Under the pieces are notes generated by a model, which was not told the DNA's origin, did not search any database, and saw nothing but the letters and a program-made list of their open reading frames with translations. A program made the translations under genes and the position numbers. Of a stretch of 64,000 nt of DNA, positions 861 through 56,921 are shown one piece after another; positions within the stretch are counted from its first letter, which is position 1, and each line of letters begins with the position of its first letter. This DNA is from Pseudomonadota bacterium. Its GTDB lineage: Bacteria; Desulfobacterota; Binatia; UBA9968. The stretch is from the NCBI GenBank assembly GCA_021324155.1, contig JAJPJQ010000028.1, forward strand, positions 62,001 through 126,000, written 5' to 3'.

Positions 861-1519
861 TTTGCTCCGTCTCCGACCGCGCGGAAAACGCGCTTGCGAA
901 CCTCCTCGACCGTACCGACGCCGTCGATCTCCCTGAGGAGGCGTCGCTTCCGATAATAATCTTTCAGCGGCGCCGTCTGTTGCTCGTAGACGCGAAGCCG
1001 CGCGGCGATCTGCTCCTCGCGGTCGTCTTCGCGCTGATACAGCTCGCCGCCGCAGCGATCGCAGACACCGTCCTTCGCCGGCGGATTAAAGACGGCATGG
1101 TACATGGCGCCGCAGTTCCTGCACGTCCGCCGCCCCGACAGCCGCTTGATGAGGACGTCATTCGGGGCCTTCAGCCCCAACGCATGCTCCAGCGGCAGGC
1201 CTCCCTTTTTCAGTATCCGTTCGAGGTCGTCGGCCTGGGCGATTGTCCGCGGAAAACCGTCGAGAATAAATCCCGCCTTGCAATCCGGCTCTTTCAGCCG
1301 TTCGGCGACGAGCTTGACCATGACGTCGTCAGGGACAAGATCGCCGCGCGCGAGATAGCCGGAAGTCTGCTTCCCGAGCGGTGTTTCGGCGCGCGCCGCC
1401 TTGCGCAAAATGTCTCCCGTCGAAACCTGGCACGCGCCGAACTTCTGCTCCAGAAGCTTGGCCTGTGTTCCCTTACCGGCCCCCGGAGGACCAAAAAAAA
1501 CGACGCGCAAAACGTCCAC
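857..1519 (-). CDS. adk: Adenylate kinase, zinc-LID type
   Basis: This cytosolic nucleoside monophosphate kinase interconverts ATP plus AMP with two ADP. The P-loop GPPGAGKGT lies at residues 10-18, the AMP-binding segment includes STGDILR near residue 33, and DGFPRT lies near residue 87. The 220-residue long form has a LID domain carrying four cysteines (Cys133, Cys136, Cys153, Cys156), the structural zinc site seen in many Gram-positive and deltaproteobacterial enzymes but missing from E. coli Adk. The gene starts five bases after the secY stop and overlaps map by four bases, so all three are probably co-translated from the spc transcript. Confidence 0.97.
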   Translation of the reverse strand: MDVLRVVFFGPPGAGKGTQAKLLEQKFGACQVSTGDILRKAARAETPLGKQTSGYLARGDLVPDDVMVKLVAERLKEPDCKAGFILDGFPRTIAQADDLERILKKGGLPLEHALGLKAPNDVLIKRLSGRRTCRNCGAMYHAVFNPPAKDGVCDRCGGELYQREDDREEQIAARLRVYEQQTAPLKDYYRKRRLLREIDGVGTVEEVRKRVFRAVGDGAK

Positions 1520-1524
1520 TCGCG

Positions 1525-2835
1525 CTAGCCTCTTCTACCTCTCAAGCGGCCCCGCTTCATAAAGCCTTCGTAATTCCGCGTGATCATGTGCGTCTCTACC
1601 TGAGCGATGGTATCCATCGCGACGCCAACGACGATCAGAAGCGCCGTGCCGCCGAAATAGAATGGCACGTTGAACTGCCGGATCAAAAGCGTCGGCAGCA
1701 GTGCGACGACGGATAGATAGATCGCCCCGCCCAGCGTGATGCGCGAGAGCACGCGGTCGATAAACTCTGCTGTTTTCTGCCCCGGCCGTATGCCGGGAAT
1801 ATAGCCGCCGAATTTCTTCATGTTCTCCGAAACGTCCACCGGATTGAAGACGACGGCGGTATAGAAATAACAAAAGAAAATAATGAAGCCGACGTAAAGC
1901 ACGTCGTGCAGCCACTGCCCGGGCGCGAGATAGCCCGCCATCGCCTGAGCCCAGGGCTGCTGGACGAACTGCGCGATGGTCGCCGGAAAGATCAAGATGG
2001 ACGAGGCGAAGATCGGCGGTATGACCCCTGCCGTGTTGATCTTGAGCGGAAGGTGCGACGTCTGCCCGCCGTACATCTTCCGGCCGACGACGCGTTTTGC
2101 GTATTGCACGGGAATTCTTCGCTGCCCCCGTTCCATGAAGATAACGACGGCGACGGTCGCGATGACGATCGCCACGACCAAAATGACGATCAACAGGCCG
2201 AGTTCGCCTTCATTGATGAACTGATATGTGGTGGTTACTGCCGAAGGCAGCCGCGCCACGATGCCGGCGAAGATGATGAGCGAGATGCCGTTGCCGATGC
2301 CGCGCTCGGTGATCTGCTCGCCGAGCCACATGATGAACGCCGTCCCGGATGTGAGCGTGATGATCGTCATGATGCGGAAGCTCCAGCCGGGATTGAGCAC
2401 GATCGCCTCGCCGCCGGCGCCGCGCGTCCCCTCCATGCCGACGGCGATCATGAGACCCTGGACAATCGACAGCACAATCGTGCCGTAGCGCGTATATTGC
2501 GTGATTTTTCGCCGCCCCGCTTCCCCCTCTTTCGACAGCCGCTCGAGATAAGGGAAGACGACGGTCAGCAGCTGGAGGATGATCGACGCGCTGATATACG
2601 GCATGATGCCGAGCGAGAAGACGGAAAACTGTTCGAGCGCGCCTCCGGAGAACAGATTGAAGAGGCCGAAGATCGTGTTCTTGACCTGGTCGAAAAAGGA
2701 GGCGAGCGCGATGCGATCGATGCCGGGGGTCGGAATATGCACGCCGACGCGGTAGACGGCGAGCATAGCCAGCGTGAAGAAAATCCGCCGCCTCAGCTCG
2801 GGAATTTTTCCTGCGTTTTGAAAACCTTCAATCAT
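1525..2835 (-). CDS. secY: Protein translocase subunit SecY
   Basis: SecY is the central pore of the SecYEG translocon in the inner membrane. The 436 residues contain about ten hydrophobic helices. The protein opens with a family-typical cytosolic segment ([14 protein letters not shown]) followed by TM1, and the conserved loop [18 protein letters not shown] lies in the middle. The C-terminus is basic ([11 protein letters not shown]). Its partner SecE is encoded at 25993-26208 in the same gene run. The gene follows rplO by 25 bases and precedes adk by five, the normal spc operon position. No duplication or accessory SecY2 features are seen. Confidence 0.98.
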
Positions 2836-2860
2836 ATATTACAGCCAAGCTTAGAGTCCG

Positions 2861-3343
2861 TTATTTTCCGGCCGCGGCCTCACGCTTCCCTTCGGTTACC
2901 GTCTGGATTACTTCCGCCTTGCCGCCGAGCGACTCGATCTTTTCTTTCGCTTTGGCGGAAAAGGCATGCGCGCGGATCGTCAGTTTCTTCGTGAACTCGC
3001 CGTCGCCGAGCACCTTCACGGGCTCTCCTTTGCGCCGGACCAAGCGGCGCTCGTGCAGCGCCTCCGGCGTCACCTCGGTGCCGGCGGCGAAGGATTCGAG
3101 CTGGCCCAGGTTGACGACGACCCAGGTACGGCGAAACGGATTGTGAAACCCGTGCTTCGGCAAGCGCCTCTGGAGCGGCATCTGGCCGCCTTCGAAGCCG
3201 GGCGCGATATTGCCGCCCGAGCGCGAGCCTTGTCCTTTGTGGCCGCGGCACGCGGTCTTCCCATGTCCCGAGCCGTCTCCGCGCCCGACGCGCTTTCTCT
3301 TTTTATTTGACCCGGGGGCCGGCTTTAAATCGCTCAAATTCAT
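2861..3343 (-). CDS. rplO: 50S ribosomal protein L15
   Basis: L15 is a 23S-rRNA-binding protein needed late in 50S assembly. The 160-residue product has the family-defining Gly/Lys/Arg-rich N-terminal extension ([19 protein letters not shown] near residues 20-39) and a globular C-terminal domain ending in an alanine-rich stretch. It begins 15 bases downstream of rpsE. In most bacteria rpmD (L30) lies between these two genes. There is no room for it here, so L30 is absent from its usual place. Confidence 0.97.
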
Positions 3344-43560: not shown

Positions 43561-43643
43561 TGGTGCGAGAGGGGGGACTCGAACCCCCATGGTTGCCCGC
43601 TGGATCCTAAGTCCAGTGCGTCTGCCAGTTCCGCCACTCTCGC
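43561..43643 (-). tRNA. tRNA-Leu (TAG anticodon)
   Basis: This is a class II tRNA. Acceptor GCGAGAG pairs with CTCTCGC, the anticodon loop is CTTAGGA with TAG, the T loop is TTCGAGT and CCA is encoded. It lies upstream of tig on the same strand and may share its promoter. Confidence 0.95.
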
Positions 43644-43821: not shown

Positions 43822-45654
43822 CTAGCGCTGATCGGCTGAGATCGGCGCAGCCGCCTCTTCGGCTTCGTAGATCGCGACCATGACGCGAAATTCTTCACTC
43901 GTTCGAAGGAGGTGATCGAAATCGCCGTCGGCTTCGATGCGTCCATGCCGGAGAAAAACGATGCGCCGGCAGCGGCGCACCGTGCTCAGGCGGTGGGCGA
44001 TCACGATCAGCGTCCGGCCGCCTTGAAGCGCATCGATCGCGATCGCGAGCTCGCGCTCGGTGCGATTGTCGAGCGCCGAGGTCGCCTCGTCGAAGACCAG
44101 CAGCTCGGGGTCGCCGTAGAGAGCTCGCGCGATCGCGACGCGCTGCCGCTCGCCGCCGGACAAGCGGATGCCGCGCTCGCCCACGACGGTATCGAGCCCG
44201 AGCGGCAGCCCGGCCACGACATCTTCGAGCTGCGCCATGCGGATCGCCGCGGCGAGCTTGCCCGTGTCGATCTCCGCGTCTTCCAGCCCGAGCGCGATGT
44301 TTCGCCGCAGCGTGTCGTCAAACAGATAAATCTCCTGCGGCACATAGCCGATCTTCGACCGCCATGCCGGCAGGTTTTGAAAAAGATCGCGGCCGTCGAC
44401 CGTAACGGCGCCCGCCGTGGGCTTAAGCAGCCCCAGAACGATATTGATCAACGTGCTTTTGCCGGCGCCGGTCGATCCGACGATCGCGACCGATTCGCCG
44501 CGCCGGATGACGAGAGACAGATGCTCCAGCGCGGGCGCCGCCCCGGTTTCATAAACGTATTGTACGCCCGTCAGGGCGATCCGATCGTTGAACGAGAAAG
44601 CTCCGCCGGACGGCGCCCCATCGAGCGCGTCGGTGAAAAGGCGCAAATCGTCGGCGAGGTGATCGACGGCGGGCGCGCCGAAGCGAATGCTGTTCCAGCC
44701 CATAATGATTCGGTTAACGGAAGGAACGATTCGGAAGCCGCCGTATGCGCAGAGTCCGAGCACGGGAAGCACGTCTGCCCTTCCCATTCCCGCCGTCACC
44801 AGCAAAATAACCAGCAGCATGCCGAGCACGAACACCGTCTCGACGATGAGCCGCGGCACTGCGTTGAGAGTTTCGAATTGGCACATCACGCGCGCGAGCG
44901 ACTCTTGCAGCGCGGAAAAACGCTCGTAAAAAAACCGCTCGCGCCCCATCACGCGAATTTCCTTAAGTCCGCCGAAGCTCTGTTGCACGCTTTGCAGCGT
45001 TTCTTTTTTCAGGATGTGCTCTTCGTGCCCCCAGCGGCTGACGTGGCGGCGCGTGATCTTCAGCATCAGCGCGAGCGAAGCGAATAGCACTCCGATGGCG
45101 AAAATGGTCGGCAACGGAGCCGTCCACATCAGCACCGCCACGATGCCGAAGATCACGAGAGTTTCGGTGGCGATGAAAAACATCGGCCCGAGGACGCGGT
45201 CGAACACGCGATACGCCGACTCGGAGACATTGCGGGCGAGCTCCGCAGTGTTTCGTCGGAGGTGAATCGCGTAAGGCAGCGCGAGATAGCCGCGCATGAG
45301 GCGGCGTGAGAGCGCGACTTGCGATTCGCCCATGAGCCTCCGCTGCAAATAAACGAACAGCGCCAGCAGCGCGTTCTTGGTCACATAAAAAAAAGCGACT
45401 CCGAGCGTCAGCCATGGCAGCGCCGGCGCTCCGCCGACAGCCGCCAGCCGCTGTGATAGAGGAGCGGGAAGCGGCAACTCCACGACCCGCGCCGGATCGC
45501 TGACAACTTTGATGAGAAAGAAGACCGCCGCGGCCCCGACGGTCTCGAGCACCGCCGCCATGAGGGCGAGAGGAAGCTGCGCCGCCCAGCGCCAGCGCAG
45601 CCGCACCGGCAGAAAAGCTAAACATTTGCGGACGTGCTCGATCATGAAGTCCAC
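43822..45654 (-). CDS. ABC flippase, PglK-type, for lipid-linked oligosaccharide
   Basis: This is a half-transporter fusing a six-helix membrane domain (about residues 20-320) to one ATPase domain. The first helix region LETVGAAAVFFLIKVVSDP resembles the start of Campylobacter PglK. The ATPase has Walker A GSTGAGKST (393-401), signature LSGGERQ (498-504), Walker B LLVFDE (518-523) and switch His554 in IAHRLST. It overlaps the ALG2-like gene by 13 bases. Its place downstream of glycosyltransferase genes and near two STT3 genes suggests it flips a completed glycan-PP-lipid to the periplasm. An MsbA-like lipid flippase is the alternative. Confidence 0.8.
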   Translation of the reverse strand: MDFMIEHVRKCLAFLPVRLRWRWAAQLPLALMAAVLETVGAAAVFFLIKVVSDPARVVELPLPAPLSQRLAAVGGAPALPWLTLGVAFFYVTKNALLALFVYLQRRLMGESQVALSRRLMRGYLALPYAIHLRRNTAELARNVSESAYRVFDRVLGPMFFIATETLVIFGIVAVLMWTAPLPTIFAIGVLFASLALMLKITRRHVSRWGHEEHILKKETLQSVQQSFGGLKEIRVMGRERFFYERFSALQESLARVMCQFETLNAVPRLIVETVFVLGMLLVILLVTAGMGRADVLPVLGLCAYGGFRIVPSVNRIIMGWNSIRFGAPAVDHLADDLRLFTDALDGAPSGGAFSFNDRIALTGVQYVYETGAAPALEHLSLVIRRGESVAIVGSTGAGKSTLINIVLGLLKPTAGAVTVDGRDLFQNLPAWRSKIGYVPQEIYLFDDTLRRNIALGLEDAEIDTGKLAAAIRMAQLEDVVAGLPLGLDTVVGERGIRLSGGERQRVAIARALYGDPELLVFDEATSALDNRTERELAIAIDALQGGRTLIVIAHRLSTVRRCRRIVFLRHGRIEADGDFDHLLRTSEEFRVMVAIYEAEEAAAPISADQR

Positions 45655-46883
45655 GCGGCTAATCTGCGCCTGTCCGCCGGCGATACGACGTCGCGGACGA
45701 TCGCTTCGAGCCGCTCAGCGAAGGCGGCGAGCGAAAACTGTCCGCGAACGCGGCGCCGTCCGGCCTCGCCCATGTGATCGGCCGCGGCGGGGTCCGAGAC
45801 CAGGCGAGCGATGGCGGCGGCGAACGCTTCCGCAGCGGGAGGCGCGAGAAAGCCGGTCACTCCGTCGACGACGATTTCGAGCGGGCGGCCGCTTTTCACC
45901 GCGACGACCGGCCGGCGCGCGGCCATCGCTTCGACGATGCCGTAACCGAAGTGCTCCGCGTCGGCGGTGTAGACAAGGCAGCGGCACGTCGAAAGCAGCC
46001 GCAGACGCTCGGCTTCGCTGCACGAAGGCTTGAAGACCACCCGCGCGGCGATTCCGAGCTCGCGCGCGCGGCTTCGAAGCTCCTTCAATACCTCCGCATT
46101 TTCGTCAACGCACGGATCCATACCGCCCGCCAGAACGAGTGTCACCCGGTCGAAGAGAGCCGGCGAGACGCTCGATCGGAGCGCGGCCAGAGCTTCGAGA
46201 GCGAGACCGATATTTTTATACCGGACGAAGCGATTGAGCGACAGCAGCATGACTTCGTCGCCCGAGTTTGTGGTGCGCGTCCGCTCGGCATAAACCGCCG
46301 GGTCGACGCCCGGATAGAGAAGTTCCGTAGCAACGTCGCGCAGCCCAGGATAGGCCTTGCGGAATTGTGCGGCGGTGAAGCGGCTGTTGACGAGAATGCG
46401 GTCTGCCAGTCTGAGCCCGGCTTCCTCCAAGCGGTCGAGCGGCGCGCGATAGAGCCGCCGGCGCAAATTCATCGTCTCGCCGATGCGTCGGTCGGGATAA
46501 TGACAGTAGTAAAGAATTTTCGCACGGCTCAAGAGCTTCAGCGCGGGAATCGCGTGCGGTATCAGGTCGGAGAAGACGACGTCGAATCGTCCGCCGAGCG
46601 CCGCGCCCGCCGCGAGCGTCGACATGCGCGCGACATTGCATGGGATGCGCGCGCGCTGAAACAGATGGTCGGGAAAGACGGTCGGGCGAACCCGCACATC
46701 GAGCGTGCCGTCGCGCGCCTCCTCGAAGCTGTGGCCGGGGTCGTGATGACCGGCGAAAAGAGTCACGCGATGCCCGGCGCGTTGCAAAGAGCGCGCGGCG
46801 TCGATCACCAGGCGCTCGCCCCCGCCGATGCCGAGATCGCGATGGATGAACGCGACGTCAAGCTCGCTCTTATTCGTGGGCAT
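45642..46883 (-). CDS. GT4 mannosyltransferase resembling eukaryotic ALG2
   Basis: This predicted cytosolic-face glycosyltransferase of the GT-B fold has 413 residues. Segments match eukaryotic ALG2 closely: VAFIHRDLGIGGGERLVIDA (10-29), HHDPGHSFEE (46-55), ILYYCHYPD (123-131), RRLYRAPLDRLEE (142-154), ILVNSRFTAAQF (163-174), LSLNRFVRYKNIGLALEAL (214-232) and EHFGYGIVE (310-318, the EX7E motif). ALG2 adds the second and third mannose to the chitobiose-linked core. It overlaps the ALG1-like gene by 14 bases and the flippase by 13. Acceptor and linkage are inferred; another GT4 specificity is possible. Confidence 0.8.
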   Translation of the reverse strand: MPTNKSELDVAFIHRDLGIGGGERLVIDAARSLQRAGHRVTLFAGHHDPGHSFEEARDGTLDVRVRPTVFPDHLFQRARIPCNVARMSTLAAGAALGGRFDVVFSDLIPHAIPALKLLSRAKILYYCHYPDRRIGETMNLRRRLYRAPLDRLEEAGLRLADRILVNSRFTAAQFRKAYPGLRDVATELLYPGVDPAVYAERTRTTNSGDEVMLLSLNRFVRYKNIGLALEALAALRSSVSPALFDRVTLVLAGGMDPCVDENAEVLKELRSRARELGIAARVVFKPSCSEAERLRLLSTCRCLVYTADAEHFGYGIVEAMAARRPVVAVKSGRPLEIVVDGVTGFLAPPAAEAFAAAIARLVSDPAAADHMGEAGRRRVRGQFSLAAFAERLEAIVRDVVSPADRRRLAAWTS

Positions 46884-48156
46884 GCAGGTAGCGCTTTAAT
46901 GCAGGCCACGCGCAAGCGCGCCATTCATCTTCCCATCGAGGCTCGCGGGAACGAGCGACGTTTCGCCGCAGCGAGCCGAGCAGCCCGGCCGGCTCGGGGA
47001 AATCCTTGAACAGATCGACGATCTGCGCCGCCAGCTCGGCCGCGTCGGCAAAAACGAGTCCGTTCTCGCCGTGGCGGAGCCGCTCGGCGAGGCACGGACC
47101 GTAATCGAACGCCATGACCGGCAGTCCGGACCCCAGCATATCGGCTATTTTCATCGGCAGGTCTACGCGGGAAGACGAGCGATGAAAGCAGAGTCCCAGG
47201 TCGGCGCACCGCAGCAGAAGGGGGTAGTCTTCCGGGCTGAGCCAAACGGTGCGTATCTGAATCCGCCGCAGCCGGATGGCGGCGATTTTACTTTCGTAGA
47301 ATTGCTTCAGCGGCCCCTCGCCGCTGATGACGACGCGCAATTCGGGAAACGCCGATGAAGCGCGCTGCGCGACCGCCGCGTCGACGCGCGAGAGCGCGTC
47401 GAGTAAGAGATCGAAATCTTCGTCCGGCGTCCAGCTCGTCGATGTCACGAGCAGCGCCGGACGCGGCTCGTGGCCGTAACCGTTTCGCCCAAAGATATCG
47501 GCCATAAGCCGGGAAAGCTGCTGACGCGTCTCGGTGCTCGACGGCACGAACGCAGGGGCGGGGCGGTCATAAACGATTTCAACTTCGCGCAGGCCCCACC
47601 CTTCTTGCAGCTCTTTCTGCATGGCGCGCGAGACGCATAGATGGCCGTCGGCGCGCCGGCCGAGCGCGCGCTCGTACCAGCGGGTCAGCCGTACGCGCAC
47701 GCTTTCCGGCGGCGCCTTGAGCGCCAGCATCGTATAACCGAAATTGTGCCAATCGACGACCAGCTTCGCGGAGCGGAGCCGCGCGCACAGCAGCATCACG
47801 GCCAGCGCCGGAATACCGGGCGGACTCTGCAGTAACATGAGATCAGGCCGCCTGACCACGAAAAGCAGCAAGCGGAAGAGCTTGATGGCCTGCACGGCGA
47901 TCCTGAAAATCGATACGGCGCTCGGCAGTGAAGTTCCTATGCGATCGAGCGCCTGCACCGGCCGCGGCGGCAGCAAATGGGTATGAATCCGGGGATGGCG
48001 GGCGATACTTTCCGGCAGAGCGCTGCCGGCGTAGCCCACGAGATCCACTTCGGCGCCGAGATCTGCAAGCGACCGCGCATGGTATTGCATGCGCGGGCTG
48101 CGCCCCAGATCGCCGAGCACGACGACTGTCGCGTTGATACTGCCGTTGGCGCTCAT
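46870..48156 (-). CDS. GT4/GT33-like beta-mannosyltransferase resembling eukaryotic ALG1
   Basis: This 428-residue GT-B enzyme resembles ALG1, which adds the first mannose to GlcNAc2-PP-dolichol. Matching segments are VVLGDLGRSPRMQYHARSLA (12-31), LLQSPPGIPALAV (108-120), AKLVVDWHNFGYT (130-142), STSWTPDEDFDLLLDAL (239-255), GEGPLKQFYE (279-288) and DLPMKIADMLGSGLPV (332-347). The similarity spans the whole length rather than one motif. Eukaryotic ALG1 has an N-terminal membrane anchor, absent here. It is the first gene of a three-gene unit with the ALG2-like gene and the flippase. Confidence 0.87.
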   Translation of the reverse strand: MSANGSINATVVVLGDLGRSPRMQYHARSLADLGAEVDLVGYAGSALPESIARHPRIHTHLLPPRPVQALDRIGTSLPSAVSIFRIAVQAIKLFRLLLFVVRRPDLMLLQSPPGIPALAVMLLCARLRSAKLVVDWHNFGYTMLALKAPPESVRVRLTRWYERALGRRADGHLCVSRAMQKELQEGWGLREVEIVYDRPAPAFVPSSTETRQQLSRLMADIFGRNGYGHEPRPALLVTSTSWTPDEDFDLLLDALSRVDAAVAQRASSAFPELRVVISGEGPLKQFYESKIAAIRLRRIQIRTVWLSPEDYPLLLRCADLGLCFHRSSSRVDLPMKIADMLGSGLPVMAFDYGPCLAERLRHGENGLVFADAAELAAQIVDLFKDFPEPAGLLGSLRRNVARSREPRWEDEWRACAWPALKRYLHAHE

Positions 48157-48220
48157 GGCTCGATCACGGAGTATATGCTAAAGTCGACCGCCGCTTCCAG
48201 CTTTCGTCTCCTAGAATCGT

Positions 48221-49300
48221 ATGCAAAGACGCGTCGCGATCGCGTGCGGAGGAACGGCGGGCCACATCCATCCGGCTCTCGCCGTCGCGGACGCCTACCG
48301 CGAAGCGCATCCGGACACGGATATTCTTTTCATCGGAACGCCCGTCGGCCTCGAATCGACACTGGTCCCCGCGCGCGCTTATCGTCTCGAAATGATTCCT
48401 GGCCAGCCTCTAGCGGGCGAGCCGTTTAGCGGCAAGCTTCGGGCGATCGGCAGTCTCATAGCCGGCATAGCTGCCGCGCGGCGGCTGCTCGTCGAAAATC
48501 GAACCGAGATCGTTATCGGTTTCGGCGGCTACGCCACCGCCGGCACCATCCTCGCGGCGCGCAGCCTCGGCCTCAAGATCGCCGTGCATGAAGCCAACGT
48601 CGAATTCGGCATGACTAATCGCTGGCTCGCCCGTTTGGCGGGCCGCGTTTATTTTGCTTTCGGCCGTACCGCCGCCGGACTTTCCGAGCAGCGCGCGCTC
48701 GTTACAGGAAACCCGGTGCGGCGCGAGATCGTCAGGCTCGCCGAAAGCATCCGGCAGCGCCCAGCCCGCGCGCACGGCACGACGCGATTTTTCGTGACCG
48801 GCGGCTCCGGCGGATCGAATTTCCTCAATCGCGAGACGCCGGCGTTGTTGAGGAAAGTCGCCGCCTGCGGGATCAAACTGGAGGCATTGCACCAGGCCGG
48901 CGGCTTCCCGCTGGCGCCGATCCGCGCCGCCTACGATCGCTGCGGCGTATGCGCTTCCGTCACCGACTATATAAAGGATATCGTAAGCGCCTACGATTGG
49001 GCCGATTTCGTGGTGACTTGCGCCGGCTCGCAGACCTTGTCGGAGATCGCGATCTGCGGCCTGCCGTTTCTCGCCGTCCCGCTGTCGAGCGCCGCCGCAG
49101 GCCATCAAGTCGCTAACGCCGCGGCCTTCGCCGAGGCTTGCGGTGCTTTATGGGTTCCGGAGAACGCTTGCGATACCAGTCGCCTCGCGCGGGAAATCGC
49201 CGCCACGCTCGAGAGAACGGGTCCGCGGCGGATGCCGACGGCGATCGACGCCGCCGGCAAGATCGTCGCCGATTGCGAGCGGATGCTGCGCAACGGCTAG
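48221..49300 (+). CDS. GT28 MurG-like GlcNAc transferase, possible ALG13/14 counterpart
   Basis: The 359-residue GT-B protein starts with a MurG-type loop, ACGGTAGHIHPALAVADAY (9-27). A second glycine loop, VTGGSGGSNFLN, lies near residue 190, and the donor-site end is AGSQTLSEIAICGLPF followed by GHQVANA. MurG adds GlcNAc to lipid I. ALG13/14 is its two-part relative that adds the second GlcNAc to GlcNAc-PP-dolichol. The gene lies with glycosylation genes rather than a division and cell-wall cluster, so I favour the second role. A stand-alone murG cannot be excluded. It is divergent from the ALG1-like gene and ends five bases before the first STT3 gene. Confidence 0.72.
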   Translation: MQRRVAIACGGTAGHIHPALAVADAYREAHPDTDILFIGTPVGLESTLVPARAYRLEMIPGQPLAGEPFSGKLRAIGSLIAGIAAARRLLVENRTEIVIGFGGYATAGTILAARSLGLKIAVHEANVEFGMTNRWLARLAGRVYFAFGRTAAGLSEQRALVTGNPVRREIVRLAESIRQRPARAHGTTRFFVTGGSGGSNFLNRETPALLRKVAACGIKLEALHQAGGFPLAPIRAAYDRCGVCASVTDYIKDIVSAYDWADFVVTCAGSQTLSEIAICGLPFLAVPLSSAAAGHQVANAAAFAEACGALWVPENACDTSRLAREIAATLERTGPRRMPTAIDAAGKIVADCERMLRNG

Positions 49301-49305
49301 TACCC

Positions 49306-52095
49306 TCATTCCCGCCAATCGATCTTAAAAGAGGCGACTTCCTCGCCCGTAAGCGTATTCTTGCGCGCGAAGGGTTTAAAAATCCCGCTGTAACGTCCGT
49401 CGAGAAAAAAGAGCCGAACCAACGTCGATCGAATCATCAGCGGGCTGCCGACCAGGATGCGCCGCCCGGACAAATCGAGCAGCACGCCGATGTCGGCGAA
49501 AACCGCATTGGCATCGAGCCGTTCATCGAGCGCCCGGGCACCGGCGACGATAAGCGCAGCGGCCGTCCCGCTGCGTTCGCCTTGCGTCAGCCGCGCGTTT
49601 GTCGGCGCGGCAGGATCGTAGCGAAATTCGATACGGTTGACGCCAGCGCCGTTCGTAATCGTTATGATGCATTCCATCGCCGGCTGCGATTCGCGACACG
49701 GAATCCATTCCGACGGGATAAGCCGCTGCGGCGGCGCGATAAAATTGTCGATCTGTTCTTGATCCTTCAGCCGCGCGATGTAATCGTAAACCGCCTTCGC
49801 TTCGTCGGGCCGATAATCCAAGCGCGCCAGATCTTGCAGCGCCTGAGGCTGCGGCAGAAGCCGCGTCCGGTGCGCCAGGTAAGCGCGCCGGACATCCCAC
49901 GAGCCGAGCCACATCCAGCCTTCCGCTTTCGCGATCATTTCCCGGCTGATCACGAGAAACGATTCGGCAGGCCGGCAATGCGTTGATGCGAGAATCGCTT
50001 CCCGGCGGTCGGCCGGGAAGCCGCGATCGGCGAGGTAGCGGGCAGCAGCGGCGCGGTCGAATTTGACGAGCTCGCTGAGGATCTCGTATGCCCGGTATTC
50101 GCCGACGCCCATGGCGGTTAGCCTACCGAACGCGCCGTAGCTCCCCTCCGGCAGCGGCGTCGCATCGGACGCGCAGTTGAGCATGCGTAAAATCCCGCGG
50201 CTCTCGACATCGCTCGGCGCCACCAGCGCTTTGGCGAGCCAGTGCGGGATGTGCGTCCAAAGCGTGCCGCCGTCGCTGGTCACCCTCCGCTGAGCCGCGT
50301 ATTTCACCCAGTAACCGTAATCCCACCAGGTATTCACGATCGCGTCGGCCGACGAGCTGCGTTTGATTTCGACGAGCGTGTCCCACCATGCGTCGTTCAT
50401 CGCCGGATAATAGTTTTTCATGGATGCGTAGCCGCGATGAACCGGGTAAAGGACAACGGAAAGCGCGATCAGGCAGCTCGCGGCCCCCGCCCATGCCGCG
50501 CGCCGCGAAAGCGTCCGGGCAAAGAGCGTTTGCAAGACCATGCGCGCGCGCTCGGCGAAGCTGCCCAGGGCGAAGCCGAAAGGGATGGCCAAGAACATAA
50601 CGAAGCGGGCGCCTTCGAACAGCTCATAAAGCGATGCACAACACCAAATCAGGATTAGCAGCACGGCCGCTTCGTCGGTTTCAACCGGTTCGTTTTTCCA
50701 GGCCGAGATCGATAGCTCCGCAGCAAAGGGCGCGCTGAAGAGGAAAAGAAAAATCGTTTTGCGCAAATCCGTCTCGGCGAACAGATAATAATGCACGATG
50801 AAAACGGCAAGAACCCAGACCGACATAACGATGTGGCGAGTCTGCAGACGGCGCAGCGGTAGCACGAGCGAGATCAGCCCGAGCCAGGCGGCGAAAAAAA
50901 CCCCGAATCCTCCCATCGATTGAACTATCTCGACCGGCAGCATTTGTCCCATCTCCGAGACGGCTTTCATGACGAAGGGCCAGATTTCGGCAGCGGCCGG
51001 TGAACCGCTCCAAAGCAACGCAAATATGGATATGAACGGCGTTGAGAACGCCGACGCTCCCGTGAACAAAGTAAAAACGCCCGCAGCGACGTAATAAACA
51101 GCCACGGCACAGGCGATGGCACGAACTTCGGCCGCTCGCCACGCGCTGCGCCAACCCGCGAGCGCGCAGTGCCGCAGCAGCGCGAGCGCCAAGCAGCCTA
51201 CGGCGGCGCAAAAAACAACGGAAAAAGTGAAAACCCAGCCGCGCCACACCGCGGCGTAGATTCCCGTCAGAAACCCGGCCACGAGAGCGAAACTCGCGGC
51301 GCGCGACGCTTTTCCGGCGTTCAATGCGACGAGCAGCGGCCAGGCGATGTACAGAGGCATGACGATATTCCATGCATCGTTGTCGCTGCCGGCGCTGCGG
51401 ATCAAGTAGTTTGGATCCAGCGAGATCGCAAGCGCCGCGACGATGGCGGCGACGTTTCCGCCGAGACGGCGGGCGATAAAAAACGCCGGCAGCACGCCGA
51501 GCGCTCCGAGAATGACCGGCACGAGAAACGCGCTCGCGGGCAAAGGATAACCGGGCCTAAAGAAAGTGATGAGGCGGTGCACCGTGACGATCGCGGCGAT
51601 GTGAAGCGAGCGGTTGTAGACCATCCGATAGCCGACCGGCGCGTTGCCGTAAGTATCGCGGCACTCGTCGCCCACGATGGCATCGCACGTCGTGCCCTTA
51701 CTCAGGTACGTGCGCGCATTGCGCAGCCACACGTAGCTATCGTAATCGCCCAGATGGGTGTAGCTCCGCCCGTCGGCGGCGGTAAAGGTCATCTCCGACC
51801 TGATCTCGGCCAGCGCTCTCTGTTCGGCGGCGGCGACTTGCGCCGGGTTGCGTTGCATCCATTCCTTAGCGGCGCTATCGACTGTCTGCATCCATTGCGC
51901 CGGCGGCAACCGTCGCATGATGTCGCGGCTGAGCTGCTCGCGCACGCGGCGATCGACTACTTTTTGGGCGAGTTCGTCCGCCCCGGGCAGGAAAGCGGGC
52001 AACGAGCGAATCCAGATCACGACGGTGACGCAGACAAACGCGAGAATGAGCGAGACGGCGTTGCCGGAGGTGAGTCGAGCTGCGAGAGCGCGCAT
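49306..52095 (-). CDS. STT3/PglB/AglB-type oligosaccharyltransferase, copy 1
   Basis: This 929-residue membrane protein is predicted to transfer a lipid-linked glycan to asparagine on the periplasmic side. About a dozen hydrophobic helices cover residues 12-550. The first acidic motif is GDYDSY (116-121). A second, GSDNDAW (236-242), follows. The loop motif is AVSE (378-381, TIXE-like) and the catalytic signature WWDYG is at 590-594. A soluble C-terminal domain of about 330 residues follows. The N-terminal loop (40-115) before GDYDSY is long and charged. It is convergent with the MurG-like gene and lies 71 bases downstream of the second copy. Confidence 0.9.
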   Translation of the reverse strand: MRALAARLTSGNAVSLILAFVCVTVVIWIRSLPAFLPGADELAQKVVDRRVREQLSRDIMRRLPPAQWMQTVDSAAKEWMQRNPAQVAAAEQRALAEIRSEMTFTAADGRSYTHLGDYDSYVWLRNARTYLSKGTTCDAIVGDECRDTYGNAPVGYRMVYNRSLHIAAIVTVHRLITFFRPGYPLPASAFLVPVILGALGVLPAFFIARRLGGNVAAIVAALAISLDPNYLIRSAGSDNDAWNIVMPLYIAWPLLVALNAGKASRAASFALVAGFLTGIYAAVWRGWVFTFSVVFCAAVGCLALALLRHCALAGWRSAWRAAEVRAIACAVAVYYVAAGVFTLFTGASAFSTPFISIFALLWSGSPAAAEIWPFVMKAVSEMGQMLPVEIVQSMGGFGVFFAAWLGLISLVLPLRRLQTRHIVMSVWVLAVFIVHYYLFAETDLRKTIFLFLFSAPFAAELSISAWKNEPVETDEAAVLLILIWCCASLYELFEGARFVMFLAIPFGFALGSFAERARMVLQTLFARTLSRRAAWAGAASCLIALSVVLYPVHRGYASMKNYYPAMNDAWWDTLVEIKRSSSADAIVNTWWDYGYWVKYAAQRRVTSDGGTLWTHIPHWLAKALVAPSDVESRGILRMLNCASDATPLPEGSYGAFGRLTAMGVGEYRAYEILSELVKFDRAAAARYLADRGFPADRREAILASTHCRPAESFLVISREMIAKAEGWMWLGSWDVRRAYLAHRTRLLPQPQALQDLARLDYRPDEAKAVYDYIARLKDQEQIDNFIAPPQRLIPSEWIPCRESQPAMECIITITNGAGVNRIEFRYDPAAPTNARLTQGERSGTAAALIVAGARALDERLDANAVFADIGVLLDLSGRRILVGSPLMIRSTLVRLFFLDGRYSGIFKPFARKNTLTGEEVASFKIDWRE

Positions 52096-52166
52096 TTCTT
52101 TTAAGCGGAGATAATGAAGGCCTTCAAATATGTATTTGCGGTAGCATGCCGATGCAAGGCAAGAGC

Positions 52167-54950
52167 TTAATCTTCCCAGCGGATCTTGTACGCAGCGACT
52201 TCTTCCCCCGTAAGCGTGGTCCTGCGCGAAGCGGGCTGGAAGATTCGACCGTAACGCCCTCCTAAATAGAACAGCCGCACCAACGTCGACCGGACCAACA
52301 AAGGGCTGCCGACCAAGATCCGCTGACCGGCGACGTCGAGCAGTACGCCGATGTCGCGAAAAGCGGCGCCGGTGTCGACCCGCTCGCTGAGCGCTCGGGT
52401 TCCGGCTACCACCAGGGCTCCTACCGTTCCCGCTTGCCCGCCCTGCATCAGCCGGGCGCTGTCCGGCGCAGCCGGATCATAGACGAATTCTAGACGGGCG
52501 ACGCCGTCGGGATTCGTGACGGTGATATTACATTTCATCTCGCCCGCCGTCCCACGGCACGGAATCCACTCCGTGGGAATCAGTCGCTGCGGCGGCGCAA
52601 TAAAGTTGTCAATCTCCGCTTGCGTCCGAAGCGGCGCGACGATGTCGTAAAGCGCCTTCGCTTCCACGCTCTTATAGCCCAGGAGCGCCAAGTCCTGCAG
52701 CGCTTGGGGCTCGGGGAGAAGACGGGTGCGGCGAGCGAGATAAGCGCGCCTGACATCCCAGGAGCCGAGCGGCATCCACCACTCGGCCTTCGTGATCATT
52801 TCCTTGCTGAGCACGAGAAACGATTCTGCGGGCGCGCAGTGGGTCGACGCGAGAACGCTCGCGCGGCGCTCGGCATTGAAACCGCGGTCGGCGAGATAGC
52901 GGTCGGCGGCAGCTCGATCGAGCTTTACAAGCTCTGTCACAAATCCATACGCCCGATAGTCGCTCAATCCCATCGCCGTGAGCTTTCCTATGGCGCCGTA
53001 GCGGCCTTCCGGCAACGGCGTCGCCTCGGAAGCGCAATTGAGCATGCGCAAAATACCTCGGCTTTCGACATCGCTGGGCGCGACCAGGGCCTTGGCGAGC
53101 CAGTGAGGCACGTGAGTGTCGAGCGTGCCGCCGTCGTCGCTCACTTTCCGCTCCGCGATATATTTAATCCAGTAGCCGTAATCCCACCAGGCGTTCACGA
53201 TGGCGTCGGATGTGGATCGGCTTTTGATTTCCACGAGAGTGTTCCACCACGCATCGTTCATCGCGGGGTAATACGTTTTCATGGTGCCGTAACCGCGCTG
53301 CACGGGATAAAAAACGACCGCTAGGGCGACGGCGCAGCTTACTGCGGGGGCGAATCTACCGACCCGCGAAGACCACGCGGTCAAAACCGTGCGGGCTATA
53401 GCGCGCAGACGGTCGGCGAAAGCACCCACCGCGAAGCCGAATGGGACTGCGAAGAGCATGATGTAGCGGATGCCCATAAACATTTGAGATAATGAAGCGA
53501 AAAACCAGACGATCACGATGACGACGGCTGCCTCGCCGGTCGGCGATGCCTCCTTCTTCCTGGCACGGATCAAAAGCTCCGCCGCGAACGGCGCGATGAA
53601 CAGAAACAGAAACAGCATCCTCGGTAGCCGCACCGCGGCAAATGAATAGTAATGAACGACAAACAACGCGAGCACGCAGGCGCCGGCCACGATCTGGCGT
53701 CTTTTTACATGCTGGTATGGCACCACCAGCAAGACGAGCCCGAGCAACCCCAACACGAAAAACATCCACCCGCCCATGAATTGCACCACATCCATGGGCA
53801 GCGGCTTTCCCAGCTCGGAAACGGTCGAGAAGGCTGCCGGCCATAGCTCCAAGCCGCGCGAAGCCGCCGCGCGTTTCGCGATGACTTGCGAAATAACGGA
53901 CGATGCGGAGGTGCCTGTGAACGATGCAAATATGGCCGACACAAGAAAATAGACTGCGGTCGCTAGCCCGACGGCGCGCACTTCGGTGGCACGCCAGGCG
54001 CGCCGCCAACCACCGGCTGACGCCTGGCGGACCGCGGCGAGCGCAAAGCAGCCGAGCGCCCCGCAGATAAGGACCAGGTAGGCAAAGACCCAGCCGCGCC
54101 AAACGGCGGCGTGGAGTGCGGTCAAAAGCGCGGCCAAAGCCGCTAATGCCGCAGCGCGCGAAACCTTTCGCGCCGACAAACCGGCGATCAGGGCCCAGGC
54201 GATATAAAGCGGCATGACGACATTCCAAACGTCGTTGTCGCCGCCCACGCTACGCAGGAGATAGACGGAATCAAGCGAAATCGTCAGCGCGGCGACGGTC
54301 GCCGCAACATTTCCTCCCAACCGCCGCGCAATAAAAAACGCGGGCAGGACACCGAGCGCGCCCAGGATGATCGGAACCAAAAATGCGCTCGCCGGCAAAG
54401 GGTAGCCGGCGTGAAAGAGATTGACGATGCGATGGACCGCCACGATGGCGGCGGTATGCAGAGATCGATTGTACAGCATCCGGTATCCGACGGGCGCGCT
54501 GCCGAGATTGTCGCGGCACTCGCCGCGGACGGTCGCGTCGCAGACGCTGCCGTGCTCTAAGTACGAACGCGCATTGCGCAGCCAGAGGTAGCTGTCATAA
54601 TCGCCGAGGTATACATAACGCCGGCCGTCGTCGCCGGCATACGTCAGCTCGGATGTGATTTCGGTCAGAGCTCTTTGTTTTTCGGCGAGGAGTTCTGCCG
54701 CATTCTGTGCCCTCCTTTCCCGGAGCTCGGTTTCGAGTCTGTCTTGCCACTGTTCGGGCGGGAAACTGCGCACGACCTCCGGCGCGATCCGCTCGCGGAC
54801 GCGCTTCTCGGCAATCTTTTCGGCCAGCCCGTCCGCCGCAGGGAGCGCCGAAGGAAGTGCGCGGACCCACGCGACGATGGCGATGCAGGCGAGCGCGAGA
54901 ACGATCGAAACGAGTTCCTGCGAAGCGAGACGAGTCAAAAGGAAGCGCAT
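52167..54950 (-). CDS. STT3/PglB/AglB-type oligosaccharyltransferase, copy 2
   Basis: This 927-residue paralogue aligns with copy 1 from end to end without large gaps. It has GDYDSY (116-121), GGDNDVW (236-242), the TIXE-type loop motif TVSE (376-379) and WWDYG (588-592). Long stretches such as PLPASAFLVP and LGALGVLPAFFIARRLGGNV are identical in both copies. Differences cluster in the external loop around 345-370 and in the C-terminal domain, which might alter acceptor or glycan choice. It is transcribed divergently from the WecA-like gene and reads toward copy 1, so both are probably co-transcribed. Confidence 0.9.
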   Translation of the reverse strand: MRFLLTRLASQELVSIVLALACIAIVAWVRALPSALPAADGLAEKIAEKRVRERIAPEVVRSFPPEQWQDRLETELRERRAQNAAELLAEKQRALTEITSELTYAGDDGRRYVYLGDYDSYLWLRNARSYLEHGSVCDATVRGECRDNLGSAPVGYRMLYNRSLHTAAIVAVHRIVNLFHAGYPLPASAFLVPIILGALGVLPAFFIARRLGGNVAATVAALTISLDSVYLLRSVGGDNDVWNVVMPLYIAWALIAGLSARKVSRAAALAALAALLTALHAAVWRGWVFAYLVLICGALGCFALAAVRQASAGGWRRAWRATEVRAVGLATAVYFLVSAIFASFTGTSASSVISQVIAKRAAASRGLELWPAAFSTVSELGKPLPMDVVQFMGGWMFFVLGLLGLVLLVVPYQHVKRRQIVAGACVLALFVVHYYSFAAVRLPRMLFLFLFIAPFAAELLIRARKKEASPTGEAAVVIVIVWFFASLSQMFMGIRYIMLFAVPFGFAVGAFADRLRAIARTVLTAWSSRVGRFAPAVSCAVALAVVFYPVQRGYGTMKTYYPAMNDAWWNTLVEIKSRSTSDAIVNAWWDYGYWIKYIAERKVSDDGGTLDTHVPHWLAKALVAPSDVESRGILRMLNCASEATPLPEGRYGAIGKLTAMGLSDYRAYGFVTELVKLDRAAADRYLADRGFNAERRASVLASTHCAPAESFLVLSKEMITKAEWWMPLGSWDVRRAYLARRTRLLPEPQALQDLALLGYKSVEAKALYDIVAPLRTQAEIDNFIAPPQRLIPTEWIPCRGTAGEMKCNITVTNPDGVARLEFVYDPAAPDSARLMQGGQAGTVGALVVAGTRALSERVDTGAAFRDIGVLLDVAGQRILVGSPLLVRSTLVRLFYLGGRYGRIFQPASRRTTLTGEEVAAYKIRWED

Positions 54951-54962
54951 TGACGGCGAGTT

Positions 54963-54992
54963 TTGTCCTATCTATTAAGGACGAACTATAAT
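54963..54992 (+). promoter_or_regulatory. Likely promoter of the WecA-like gene
   Basis: TTGTCC (54963-54968), an 18-base spacer and a perfect TATAAT (54987-54992) point toward the WecA-like gene. They lie in the 176-base gap separating it from the divergent STT3 copy 2. The leader would be about 125 bases long. It contains a short inverted repeat, ATGGCA/TGCCAT, around a T-rich loop at 55021-55043. Confidence 0.45.
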
Positions 54993-55126
54993 CGCAAGTA
55001 ACGGTTGCTTCAAATCGGAAATGGCAGATTTTTTTCTTGCCATCGCCGCAGAACTCTTCTACGCTGGCAGCGCCTCATTAAACCCAGCATCGAGAGCTTG
55101 CGAACGCGCCAGGAGTTGTCACCCCG

Positions 55127-56188
55127 TTGGCAAATTATTATACGTTTCTCTTTGTCGCCGCCGCCGCGTTGAGTTTCGCGACGACGCCGGTGGTTCGCGC
55201 GCTTGCTCGCCGCGGCGGGGTTGCCGAGTTTAGCGCGCAGCGGCCGCATGCAGGCCCGATTCCGACGCTTGGCGGCCTCTCGCTGCTCGCGGCGGTCGCC
55301 GGAGCGATTGCCTTGAGCCTCGCTTTTTATCCCGGATTGTCTGTTTTTTTTGTAACGCTCGGCTCTTGGCGCTGGTCGACCGCAGGCGCGCTCCTGATCG
55401 CATGTCTCGGCGTCGTCGATGACGTCGTGCGGGTGCGGCCGGCCACAAAAATCGTCTTTCAACTCGTGGCCGCGCTCTTGGTCGTCGCCGACGGCCACGG
55501 CATCGGACGCGTCATCGACCCGTTTACCGGGACGACTTTGTATCTCGGATGGCTGGCGGCGCCGATCACGCTGCTGTGGATCATCGGGATGACGAACGCG
55601 TTCAATTTGATCGACGGGCTGGACGGGCTCGCCGCCGGCGTCGGCCTCATCGCGGCGCTCACGCTGGCCGCGCTCGCCGCAACCGCGGCCCGTCAGGAAA
55701 TCGCGCTCATCGCGCTTGCGCTCGCAGGCGCGCTGCTCGGCTTTCTGTTCTTCAATTTCTTTCCCGCCTCGATCTTCATGGGCGATTCCGGAAGCATGTT
55801 CGTGGGATACGTCCTCGCCGCGCTATATGTCCGCGGCGCGCAGCAGCCCGAAGGCGTGCCCGTCCTCACGCCGCTGTTGGCGCTCGCCTTTCCGGTCACG
55901 GACGCGATGCTTGCAATCATCCGCCGCGGATTCGGATCGAACGGCCAGGAAGGCCGGCGCGACCTCTCGAGTCGTTTTTTGTCCATTTTTCGCCGCGACC
56001 ATGAGCATATCCATCACCGGCTGATGTCCGCCGGATTAACCGAGAAACACGCCGTGCTTCTGCTTTATGCGGCATCGTTCGTTTCGGCGCTTGCCGCCGT
56101 ACTGACTTTTCATGCGCAAGGCGTACGTCTGGTCACAACTATCGCCGTGATTTCGGGCGCGATTTATTTCGGTTTCCGAAGACGCTGA
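55127..56188 (+). CDS. Polyprenyl-phosphate GlcNAc-1-phosphate transferase, WecA/MraY family
   Basis: This inner-membrane enzyme moves a sugar-1-phosphate (commonly GlcNAc-1-P) from a UDP-sugar to undecaprenyl phosphate, the first step of lipid-linked glycan synthesis. Ten or eleven hydrophobic helices are visible. Motifs are GVVDDV with Asp98/Asp99, NAFNLIDGLDG (157-167), FMGDSGS (217-223) and the WecA-type HEHIHH (292-297). The start is a TTG with AGGAG eleven bases upstream. In this locus it is the candidate ALG7 counterpart, but it could also serve O-antigen or other glycans. A terminator-like hairpin lies beyond its end. Confidence 0.87.
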   Translation: MANYYTFLFVAAAALSFATTPVVRALARRGGVAEFSAQRPHAGPIPTLGGLSLLAAVAGAIALSLAFYPGLSVFFVTLGSWRWSTAGALLIACLGVVDDVVRVRPATKIVFQLVAALLVVADGHGIGRVIDPFTGTTLYLGWLAAPITLLWIIGMTNAFNLIDGLDGLAAGVGLIAALTLAALAATAARQEIALIALALAGALLGFLFFNFFPASIFMGDSGSMFVGYVLAALYVRGAQQPEGVPVLTPLLALAFPVTDAMLAIIRRGFGSNGQEGRRDLSSRFLSIFRRDHEHIHHRLMSAGLTEKHAVLLLYAASFVSALAAVLTFHAQGVRLVTTIAVISGAIYFGFRRR

Positions 56189-56346: not shown

Positions 56347-56422
<76 letters not shown>

Positions 56423-56448
56423 ACGTCCGCGGCTGGCGCGGAATAACC

Positions 56449-56563
56449 AATTTAAAATCGCGATATGAGATTTGCCATCGCCATATCCGCGCTGCGCGCG
56501 GAATCACAGATTTAAAATCTCGGATCTCATATGCGATTTGAGATCTGAAATCTGAAATCCCGA
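56449..56563. repeat. Heptad-repeat arms, site D (AT-based)
   Basis: The right arm has AT at 56536, 56543, 56550 and 56557, strictly seven apart, in units such as ATTTGAG and ATCTGAA. The left arm has AT at 56450 and 56457 and again at 56470, 56477 and 56484, with one slip. GCGCGGAAT followed by TTTAAAATC occurs in both halves (from about 56436 and 56496), so part of the element is also directly repeated. It fills the gap between tRNA-His and tRNA-Lys and is the most degenerate of the five sites. Confidence 0.65.
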
Positions 56564-56569
56564 AGGGTT

Positions 56570-56648
56570 TGGGGTGAGTGAAGGGATTTGAACCCTCAAC
56601 CCCTGGAGCCACAGTCCAGTGCTCTAACCTAATTGAGCTACACTCACC
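56570..56648 (-). tRNA. tRNA-His (GTG anticodon)
   Basis: Acceptor GTGAGTG pairs with CACTCAC, with the extra G-1 opposite discriminator C that histidyl-tRNA synthetase requires. The anticodon loop is CTGTGGC with GTG, and CCA is encoded. The range includes G-1 and CCA. Confidence 0.95.
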
Positions 56649-56680
56649 GCAAAACTGTCTCGACAGATCCGTAAACGGCC

Positions 56681-56760
56681 AGTGAGTAGTGAGTAGTGGT
56701 TAGTGAAATCGATCTCGATTCTTCACTACTCACTGCTCACCACTCACTGCTCACTTCTCA
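56681..56760. repeat. Heptad-repeat inverted arms, site B (AGTG-N3 / TCAC-N3)
   Basis: AGTG occurs at 56681, 56688, 56695 and 56702. TCAC occurs at 56723, 56730, 56737, 56744 and 56751, with TCA at 56758. Each arm keeps an exact 7-base period and the arms are complementary around a short loop (56706-56722) that contains the palindrome-like TCGATCTCGA. It lies between tRNA-Arg and tRNA-His and contains no gene. Confidence 0.85.
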
Positions 56761-56762
56761 TG

Positions 56763-56839
<77 letters not shown>

Positions 56840-56844
56840 CGAAT

Positions 56845-56921
56845 TGGTCGGGGCGAGACGATTTGAACGTCCGACCCCCTGCGCCCAAGGCAGGTGCGCT
56901 ACCAGGCTGCGCTACGCCCCG
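56845..56921 (-). tRNA. tRNA-Pro (TGG anticodon)
   Basis: Acceptor CGGGGCG pairs with CGCCCCG, including the C1-G72 pair typical of bacterial tRNA-Pro. The anticodon loop is CTTGGGC with TGG. CCA is encoded. It is only five bases from tRNA-Arg, so the two are surely co-transcribed. Confidence 0.95.

Follow-up and report, generated by a model that had tools for sequence, protein, structure and literature searches.

We analyzed a 64,000-nucleotide stretch of a genome from the bacterial class Binatia (hereafter the window), in which seven adjacent genes probably constitute a locus for asparagine (N-) glycosylation, where sugars would be assembled much as in the opening cytoplasmic steps of the pathway in eukaryotes. 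By its STT3 proteins the locus is of the oligosaccharyltransferase (OST)/Pgl kind, and by its assembly enzymes it appears to be a new form of that kind. The evidence computed here comprises the protein families, the orthology of ALG1 and ALG2, the motifs and fold of the OSTs, a recurring gene neighborhood, and an association between ALG1 and STT3. A preliminary annotation made from the DNA letters (the sequence-only reading) had assigned the seven adjacent genes to named families, and these assignments were confirmed: all seven are open reading frames at the expected window coordinates, with matches to Pfam and NCBIfam models.

Two genes on the minus strand encode an ALG1-like (GT33-type) mannosyltransferase (46870..48156) and an ALG2-like GT4 mannosyltransferase (45642..46883). 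In eukaryotes, ALG1 and ALG2 build the Man3GlcNAc2 core, the former with a beta-1,4-mannose on GlcNAc2-PP-polyprenol and the latter with alpha-1,3 and alpha-1,6 mannose. As queries we used human and yeast ALG1 and ALG2 sequences that were not taken from database records. The ALG1-like protein was 39% identical to human ALG1 over 440 amino acids (E = 6.3e-102) and 37% identical to yeast ALG1 over nearly its full length; the ALG2-like protein was 41% identical to human ALG2 over 393 amino acids (E = 2.2e-93) and 32% identical to yeast ALG2, again nearly full length. When the whole source genome (G000) was searched with the yeast queries, ALG1 found a single gene at E<=1e-5, the window ALG1-like gene (E = 4.6e-76), and ALG2 found a single gene at E<=1, the window ALG2-like gene (E = 1.7e-52). 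Alignment and a motif scan showed that the ALG1 blocks GD.GRSPRM.YHA, DWHN, and SS..DLPMK are kept as in the eukaryotic queries. A bacterial ALG1 profile (A1), built from nine ALG1-like proteins of the class, gave human ALG1 431.9 bits and yeast ALG1 360.1 bits, against a range of 241.7 to 674.1 bits for the bacterial family; of the 58 different bacterial rows, 14, including three fragments, scored lower than the human sequence.

An outcome set in advance as contradicting the ALG1 and ALG2 assignment, namely best matches to O-antigen or capsule transferases with no support for ALG, went the opposite way. The best NCBIfam scores were 79.8 bits for the ALG2-like protein (cut-off 400) and 27.1 bits for the ALG1-like protein (cut-off 276), and we rejected ordinary capsule or O-antigen GT4 enzymes as an identity for either. 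The pair are, as judged from these alignments, full-length orthologues of eukaryotic ALG1 and ALG2. The match to eukaryotic ALG1 begins at residue 8 or 11 of the window protein, which corresponds to residue 34 or 43 of the eukaryotic enzymes. Because the window protein begins approximately where the match begins, it would lack the membrane anchor found at the N terminus of the eukaryotic enzyme (described in passages of PMC11048727). No chain in the PDB resembled the ALG1-like protein at E<=1.

The claim that the locus encodes two STT3 proteins was borne out. STT3a (49306..52095, minus strand) and its tandem paralogue STT3b (52167..54950, minus strand) scored 92.7 and 83.1 bits on PF02516 (cut-off 24.5), and both carry the STT3/PglB core domain PF21436 and intact OST motifs, namely WWD, two acidic motifs, and a loop of the SVSE/TIXE type. 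They are 61% identical to one another, and STT3a shares 33-49% identity with ten relatives. A 12-row STT3 alignment showed no variation in WWD, in the D-x-D of acidic motif two, or in the glutamate of the loop; for this glutamate and for acidic motif one we assume the roles known from other STT3s. Among the motifs listed in the sequence-only reading, WWDYG is present in both STT3 proteins, and GRSPRMQYHA and EHFGYGIVEAM were also found; the loop motif TVSE stood for STT3b and failed for STT3a, which reads AVSE. phmmer matched the WWDYG of the window to archaeal and human STT3; a second aligned stretch, weak at i-Evalue 3.9, placed AGS-DND opposite AGSYDNE of human STT3A.

An AlphaFold model of STT3a, based on a 9-row alignment, had a pLDDT of 76.9 and a pTM of 0.71, with low confidence at residues 148-161, 362-382, and 592-614 and in some shorter stretches. 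The best 18 Foldseek matches of this model in the PDB were all oligosaccharyltransferases (PglB, STT3, AglB). With VIA-align, the first 19 rows were OSTs with Z of 22.9-29.3, and the next was a C-mannosyltransferase at 20.5. These comparisons of the model indicate that STT3a has the OST fold. From their sequences, STT3a and STT3b belong to the STT3/PglB/AglB oligosaccharyltransferase family, with predicted transfer to asparagine. The tandem pair (49306-54950), where the related genome G003 has one STT3, possibly differs in acceptor preference.

The starter, MurG-like, and flippase roles proposed in the sequence-only reading stood at the level of family, not at that of the curated cut-offs of the WecA, murG, and PglK models. 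The GT28 gene (48221..49300, plus strand) encodes a MurG-type GlcNAc transferase paralogue in the Alg13/14 role, with the Pfam N and C domains PF03033 and PF04101. It scored 221.8 bits on the murG model TIGR01133, under the cut-off of 250.25, and a gene on contig C34 of the same genome scored 305.3 bits on the same model; we rejected the window GT28 as the only MurG of the cell given this better murG. The motifs GGTAGH and HEAN represent the GG..GH and HE.N loops, described for MurG and in part for Alg14 in passages of PMC8993221. The window GT28 is a single MurG-type protein whose strong matches among solved structures were three MurG sequences, and it is not of the Alg13/Alg14 type, defined as a two-protein split or a non-MurG sequence.

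The WecA-type gene (55127..56188, plus strand) encodes a UDP-GlcNAc:undecaprenyl-phosphate GlcNAc-1-P transferase in the Alg7 role. It matched PF00953 at 147.8 bits and TIGR02380 at 127.7 bits (cut-off 326.05), and its HIHHR motif contains HIHH, presumably a mark of the WecA type. The ABC exporter/flippase gene (43822..45654, minus strand) has a likely ATG start at 45645. Of 188 family models, the PglK model NF050066 fit it best, at 280.9 bits; this is under the cut-off of 1000, and we therefore call the transporter PglK-type and not PglK. Its residues 80-575 matched structures of Campylobacter jejuni PglK/WlaB at E of about 1e-75, and eukaryotic ABCB exporters scored higher in the same search. 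Elsewhere in the genome, a ManC-like GDP-mannose pyrophosphorylase matched positions 3-345 of 467 at 283.9 bits, under the fused-enzyme cut-off of 372.95.

From these assignments we infer the order of steps, the sugars, their linkages, and the asparagine acceptor. The WecA-type protein would place GlcNAc-1-P onto undecaprenyl phosphate, and the GT28 would add a second, beta-1,4-linked GlcNAc. GDP-mannose would then be the donor for ALG1, which would attach the first beta-1,4-mannose, and for ALG2, which would attach one or two alpha-mannoses. The lipid-linked Man(1-3)GlcNAc2 would be flipped to the periplasmic side by the PglK-type ABC transporter, and either or both of the STT3s would move the glycan to asparagines of exported proteins. 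Such a chain can work in a bacterium, as shown by Escherichia coli engineered with yeast Alg13, Alg14, Alg1, and Alg2 together with ManB, ManC, and PglB, which makes and transfers Man3GlcNAc2 with an in vivo conversion of less than 5% (according to passages of PMC6043479).

The proposed pathway resembles the cytoplasmic half of the eukaryotic endoplasmic reticulum (ER) pathway (Alg7, Alg13/14, Alg1, Alg2) in the families of its first-step enzymes and in its STT3 transferase. It differs in that the GT28 is one MurG-type protein instead of an Alg13/Alg14 pair, the flippase is a PglK-type ABC transporter, the genes are clustered, and no Alg11 or lumenal mannosyltransferase is among the seven window genes, to which this comparison was confined within the genome. 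The Pgl system of C. jejuni has a single-protein STT3-type OST, an ABC flippase, and assembly on undecaprenyl pyrophosphate, all encoded in one locus, and in each of these traits the window locus is alike. In contrast to that system, ALG1 and ALG2 replace PglA, PglH, PglJ, and PglI, there is no bacillosamine gene among the seven, and the structural alignment of the STT3a model with PglB gives 12-13% identity. Crenarchaea transfer their glycans by AglB/STT3, a feature shared with the locus proposed here. The crenarchaeal Agl24 pathway, as described in part of PMC8993221, makes lipid-linked chitobiose by an Alg14/13- and MurG-like enzyme, as proposed here, and differs in its dolichol-type carrier. 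The engineered E. coli Man3GlcNAc2 chain, as far as set out in passages of PMC6043479, has practically the same activities as those proposed for the window, whereas the window locus is natural and has its own GT28, flippase, and two OSTs.

The sequence-only reading knew of no bacterial locus with this combination of genes. We likewise found no report of a bacterial Alg1 in the open-access literature, but the combination is not confined to the window locus. The conserved synteny that had been suggested as a check was found in G003, a genome of the same family, and in several phyla. G003 carries WecA, one STT3, GT28, ALG1, and PglK genes with the same right-hand flank as the window. We scanned 84,980 species, each represented by a single genome, with two exact ALG1 peptide patterns and obtained 96 matching stretches, of which 57 encode relatives; these correspond to 55 named bacterial loci. 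The largest groups by title were Acidobacteria or its groups (30) and Deltaproteobacteria/Binatia (8), and the rest were Opitutaceae genera or family (3), Rokubacteria (2), Myxococcales (2), and others (10). No locus titled archaeal was among the 55 found with these two patterns, a further difference from the crenarchaeal Agl24 pathway.

In the sequence retrieved around ALG1, at least one further pathway gene was present at 36 of the 55 loci, and STT3 at 18. Alongside STT3, these 18 loci contain GT28 (14 loci), PglK (14), ALG2 (7), and WecA at 100 bits or more (6). The STT3 calls rest on Pfam for ten of ten neighbors tested and one more in L069, and on the profile for seven. Pfam-confirmed neighbors come from Myxococcales, Opitutaceae, Bryobacterales, Terriglobia, Rokubacteria, and L062. 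ALG1 and STT3 recur together in Rokubacteria, Myxococcota, Verrucomicrobia, and Acidobacteria, and the STT3 neighbors are of different kinds: the AglB-core domain is over its cut-off in Acidobacteria and Rokubacteria, the STT3-PglB core is found in L083, L062, and the window, and the Opitutaceae pair matches PF02516 alone. Two Rokubacteria loci combine STT3, GT28, ALG1, ALG2, PglK-type, and WecA-type genes. Against the human ALG2 query, the ALG2 neighbors scored 110-314 bits (the lowest being L080, which is incomplete like L041), a truncated copy in L040 and L076 scored 62.8 bits, and other GT4 frames scored 58.9 bits or less. The truncated copy, at about 1126-1398 of L076 with the same stretch in L040, is an ALG2 fragment of about 90 residues between ALG1 and PglK and apparently a decayed gene. 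In L060, ALG1 adjoins a frame of 603 residues (about 1467-3275) for which eight membrane stretches are predicted and which contains the motif WWNAG.

It is rather unlikely that the locus performs N-glycosylation with a glycan unlike the eukaryotic core, its GT28, ALG1, or ALG2 using other sugars or linkages. Known bacterial Pgl systems do use other sugars, such as bacillosamine, the GT28 belongs to the MurG type instead of the split Alg13/Alg14 type, and the gene set varies among the 18 STT3-bearing loci, as the counts for GT28 and ALG2 show. Against such a glycan stand the 32-41% identity to the eukaryotic ALG1 and ALG2 queries over nearly the full length, with the conserved blocks intact, and the GDP-mannose pyrophosphorylase-like gene in the genome.

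We also considered the association of ALG1 with STT3 in 148 genomes of the class, calling STT3 by the curated cut-off of PF02516. STT3 was over the cut-off in 26 genomes and ALG1 was found by the bacterial profile in 15, with both in 13; hence STT3 is present in 13 of 15 ALG1 genomes and in 13 of the 133 others (Fisher p = 5.9e-10, uncorrected for kinship). The yeast ALG1 query matched 16 of the 148, the sixteenth being G035, with a weak generic GT4 match (3.4e-8) that scored 34.3 bits on the ALG1 profile. ALG2 occurred in six class genomes, all of which also have ALG1, as expected if ALG2 needs the product of ALG1. One genus of the class may have several OST-like proteins per cell, with six PF02516 matches in G104 and four in G103. 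We extended the STT3 search to 38 ALG1 genomes, representing 38 of the 55 loci; the other 17 were left out as duplicates of class genomes or as mostly short contigs, and the 38 include at least two, G148 and G173, whose places coincide with those of class genomes G079 and G104. STT3 was detected at E<=0.001 in 24 of the 38 and over the cut-off in 23.

Several observations weigh against a eukaryote-like N-glycosylation pathway. Thirteen class genomes carry STT3 without ALG1. Conversely, G034 (100% complete) has ALG1, ALG2, GT28, and a PglK-like gene, and G121 (85% complete) has ALG1 and ALG2, with no STT3 over the cut-off in either. At the profile threshold no ALG2 was found in G003, a close relative, and 19 of the 55 loci have no partner gene in the retrieved sequence (under 7 kb for 4 of the 19). 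In a clade of Acidobacteria (17 ALG1 rows), STT3 was over the cut-off in 1 of 14 searched genomes, and the tested neighbors at three of its loci (two to three genes each) were unrelated. The STT3a model is weak at the glutamate loop (362-382) and at the end of WWDYG (592-614), and the WecA, murG, and PglK models were all matched under their curated cut-offs. The ALG1 family accompanies STT3 except in the Acidobacteria clade; there it may act otherwise or use another transferase.

Some individual loci merit description. A 20-kb locus of G034 (L099) has adjacent ALG1, GT28, and PglK-like genes, with ALG2 about 12 kb away. In L045, L065, and L071, ALG1 orthologues have molybdopterin-dehydrogenase-type, aldehyde dehydrogenase, or topoisomerase IB genes as neighbors, and the genomes concerned have no STT3 match; these neighborhoods perhaps reflect a second use of the ALG1 family. 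The record of L054 is titled Bifidobacterium breve, its ALG1 falls inside an Acidobacteria clade, and it is probably a mislabelled metagenome-assembled genome.

The same absences would fit a lipid-linked oligosaccharide made for exopolysaccharide, lipopolysaccharide, or another surface glycan, with the STT3s serving separately: ALG1 occurs without STT3 over the cut-off in G034 and G121 of the class and, in the Acidobacteria clade, in 13 of the 14 genomes searched. We consider this improbable, given that none of the seven cluster genes encodes a polymerase or ligase for a pathway of this sort, that the class shows an association of ALG1 with STT3, that the two are found together in several phyla, where the STT3s are of different types, and that STT3 is over the cut-off in 22 of the 24 ALG1 genomes searched outside the clade.

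The source genome measures 4.8 Mb and is 98.1% complete and 3.3% contaminated, and the GC content of the cluster genes is 0.62-0.66, against 0.61 for the window. The reported overlaps between minus-strand genes are present: the ALG2 stop and the PglK-type ATG share one ATGA, and the ALG2 gene runs 14 bases into the end of the ALG1 gene. The cluster is bordered by tRNA genes predicted by ARAGORN, all on the minus strand, with tRNA-Leu at 43561..43643 on the left and tRNA-Lys, -His, -Arg, and -Pro at 56347..56921 on the right. Recent transfer from a eukaryote, or contamination of the assembly, would account for how closely ALG1 and ALG2 resemble eukaryotic enzymes, but is very improbable, as the cluster frames are uninterrupted, the same contig carries these tRNAs and bacterial flanking genes (tig, clpP, clpX, lon, and rph, read from translations), four genes of the right-hand flank also adjoin the cluster in G003, a member of a different genus, and the ALG1 family spans several bacterial phyla with deep branches.

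We built ALG1 trees in which two sequences, the human and yeast queries, represent the eukaryotes. In an unrooted 57-row tree (seven duplicates and three rows covering fewer than 340 profile positions dropped), the eukaryotes group with the window, L081, and L041 at 88/96, with the bootstrap unsettled; in an unrooted 36-row tree, with 21 long or redundant rows (including near-duplicates) dropped, the same grouping has 96/92. A clade of the window, L081, and L041 without the eukaryotes was not rejected (p-AU 0.164), and grouping of the eukaryotes with Rokubacteria was marginally rejected (p-AU 0.0458). Rooting used three distant GT4 outgroup rows in a 42-row tree, from which three long and 15 redundant rows had been further dropped. 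The outgroup branches were very long, and a topology with all bacteria together versus eukaryotes plus outgroup was not rejected and beat the free tree (p-AU 0.773). Because the rooting failed, we claim no direction of transfer.

Earlier work, Lombard 2016 (PMC4973528), could not determine the closest prokaryotic relatives of Alg1 and took the enzyme for an innovation of eukaryotes whose origin is unknown. We found no report of a bacterial Alg1 in the open-access literature, a coverage that mostly excludes subscription papers and preprints, and no paper there on Binatota and glycosylation. Passages of papers on Asgard N-glycosylation name STT3 and OST subunits and not Alg1, and the covered part of a paper on planctobacterial origin has no passage on Alg1. 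We tentatively suggest that eukaryotic ALG1, and perhaps ALG2, might descend from, or share an immediate ancestor with, a bacterial N-glycosylation cluster like the one in the window. A bacterial mannosylated chitobiose core would then have been gained earlier than the last eukaryotic common ancestor and combined with archaeal Alg7 and STT3.

The organism would be a naturally occurring bacterial chassis for core N-glycans resembling human ones, which have so far been built artificially in E. coli. If the suggested ancestry is true, the mannosylated chitobiose core would be a bacterial invention, with the cluster a candidate source for the eukaryotic core enzyme, and the 55 bacterial loci with ALG1 orthologues make this part of the origin of the pathway testable.

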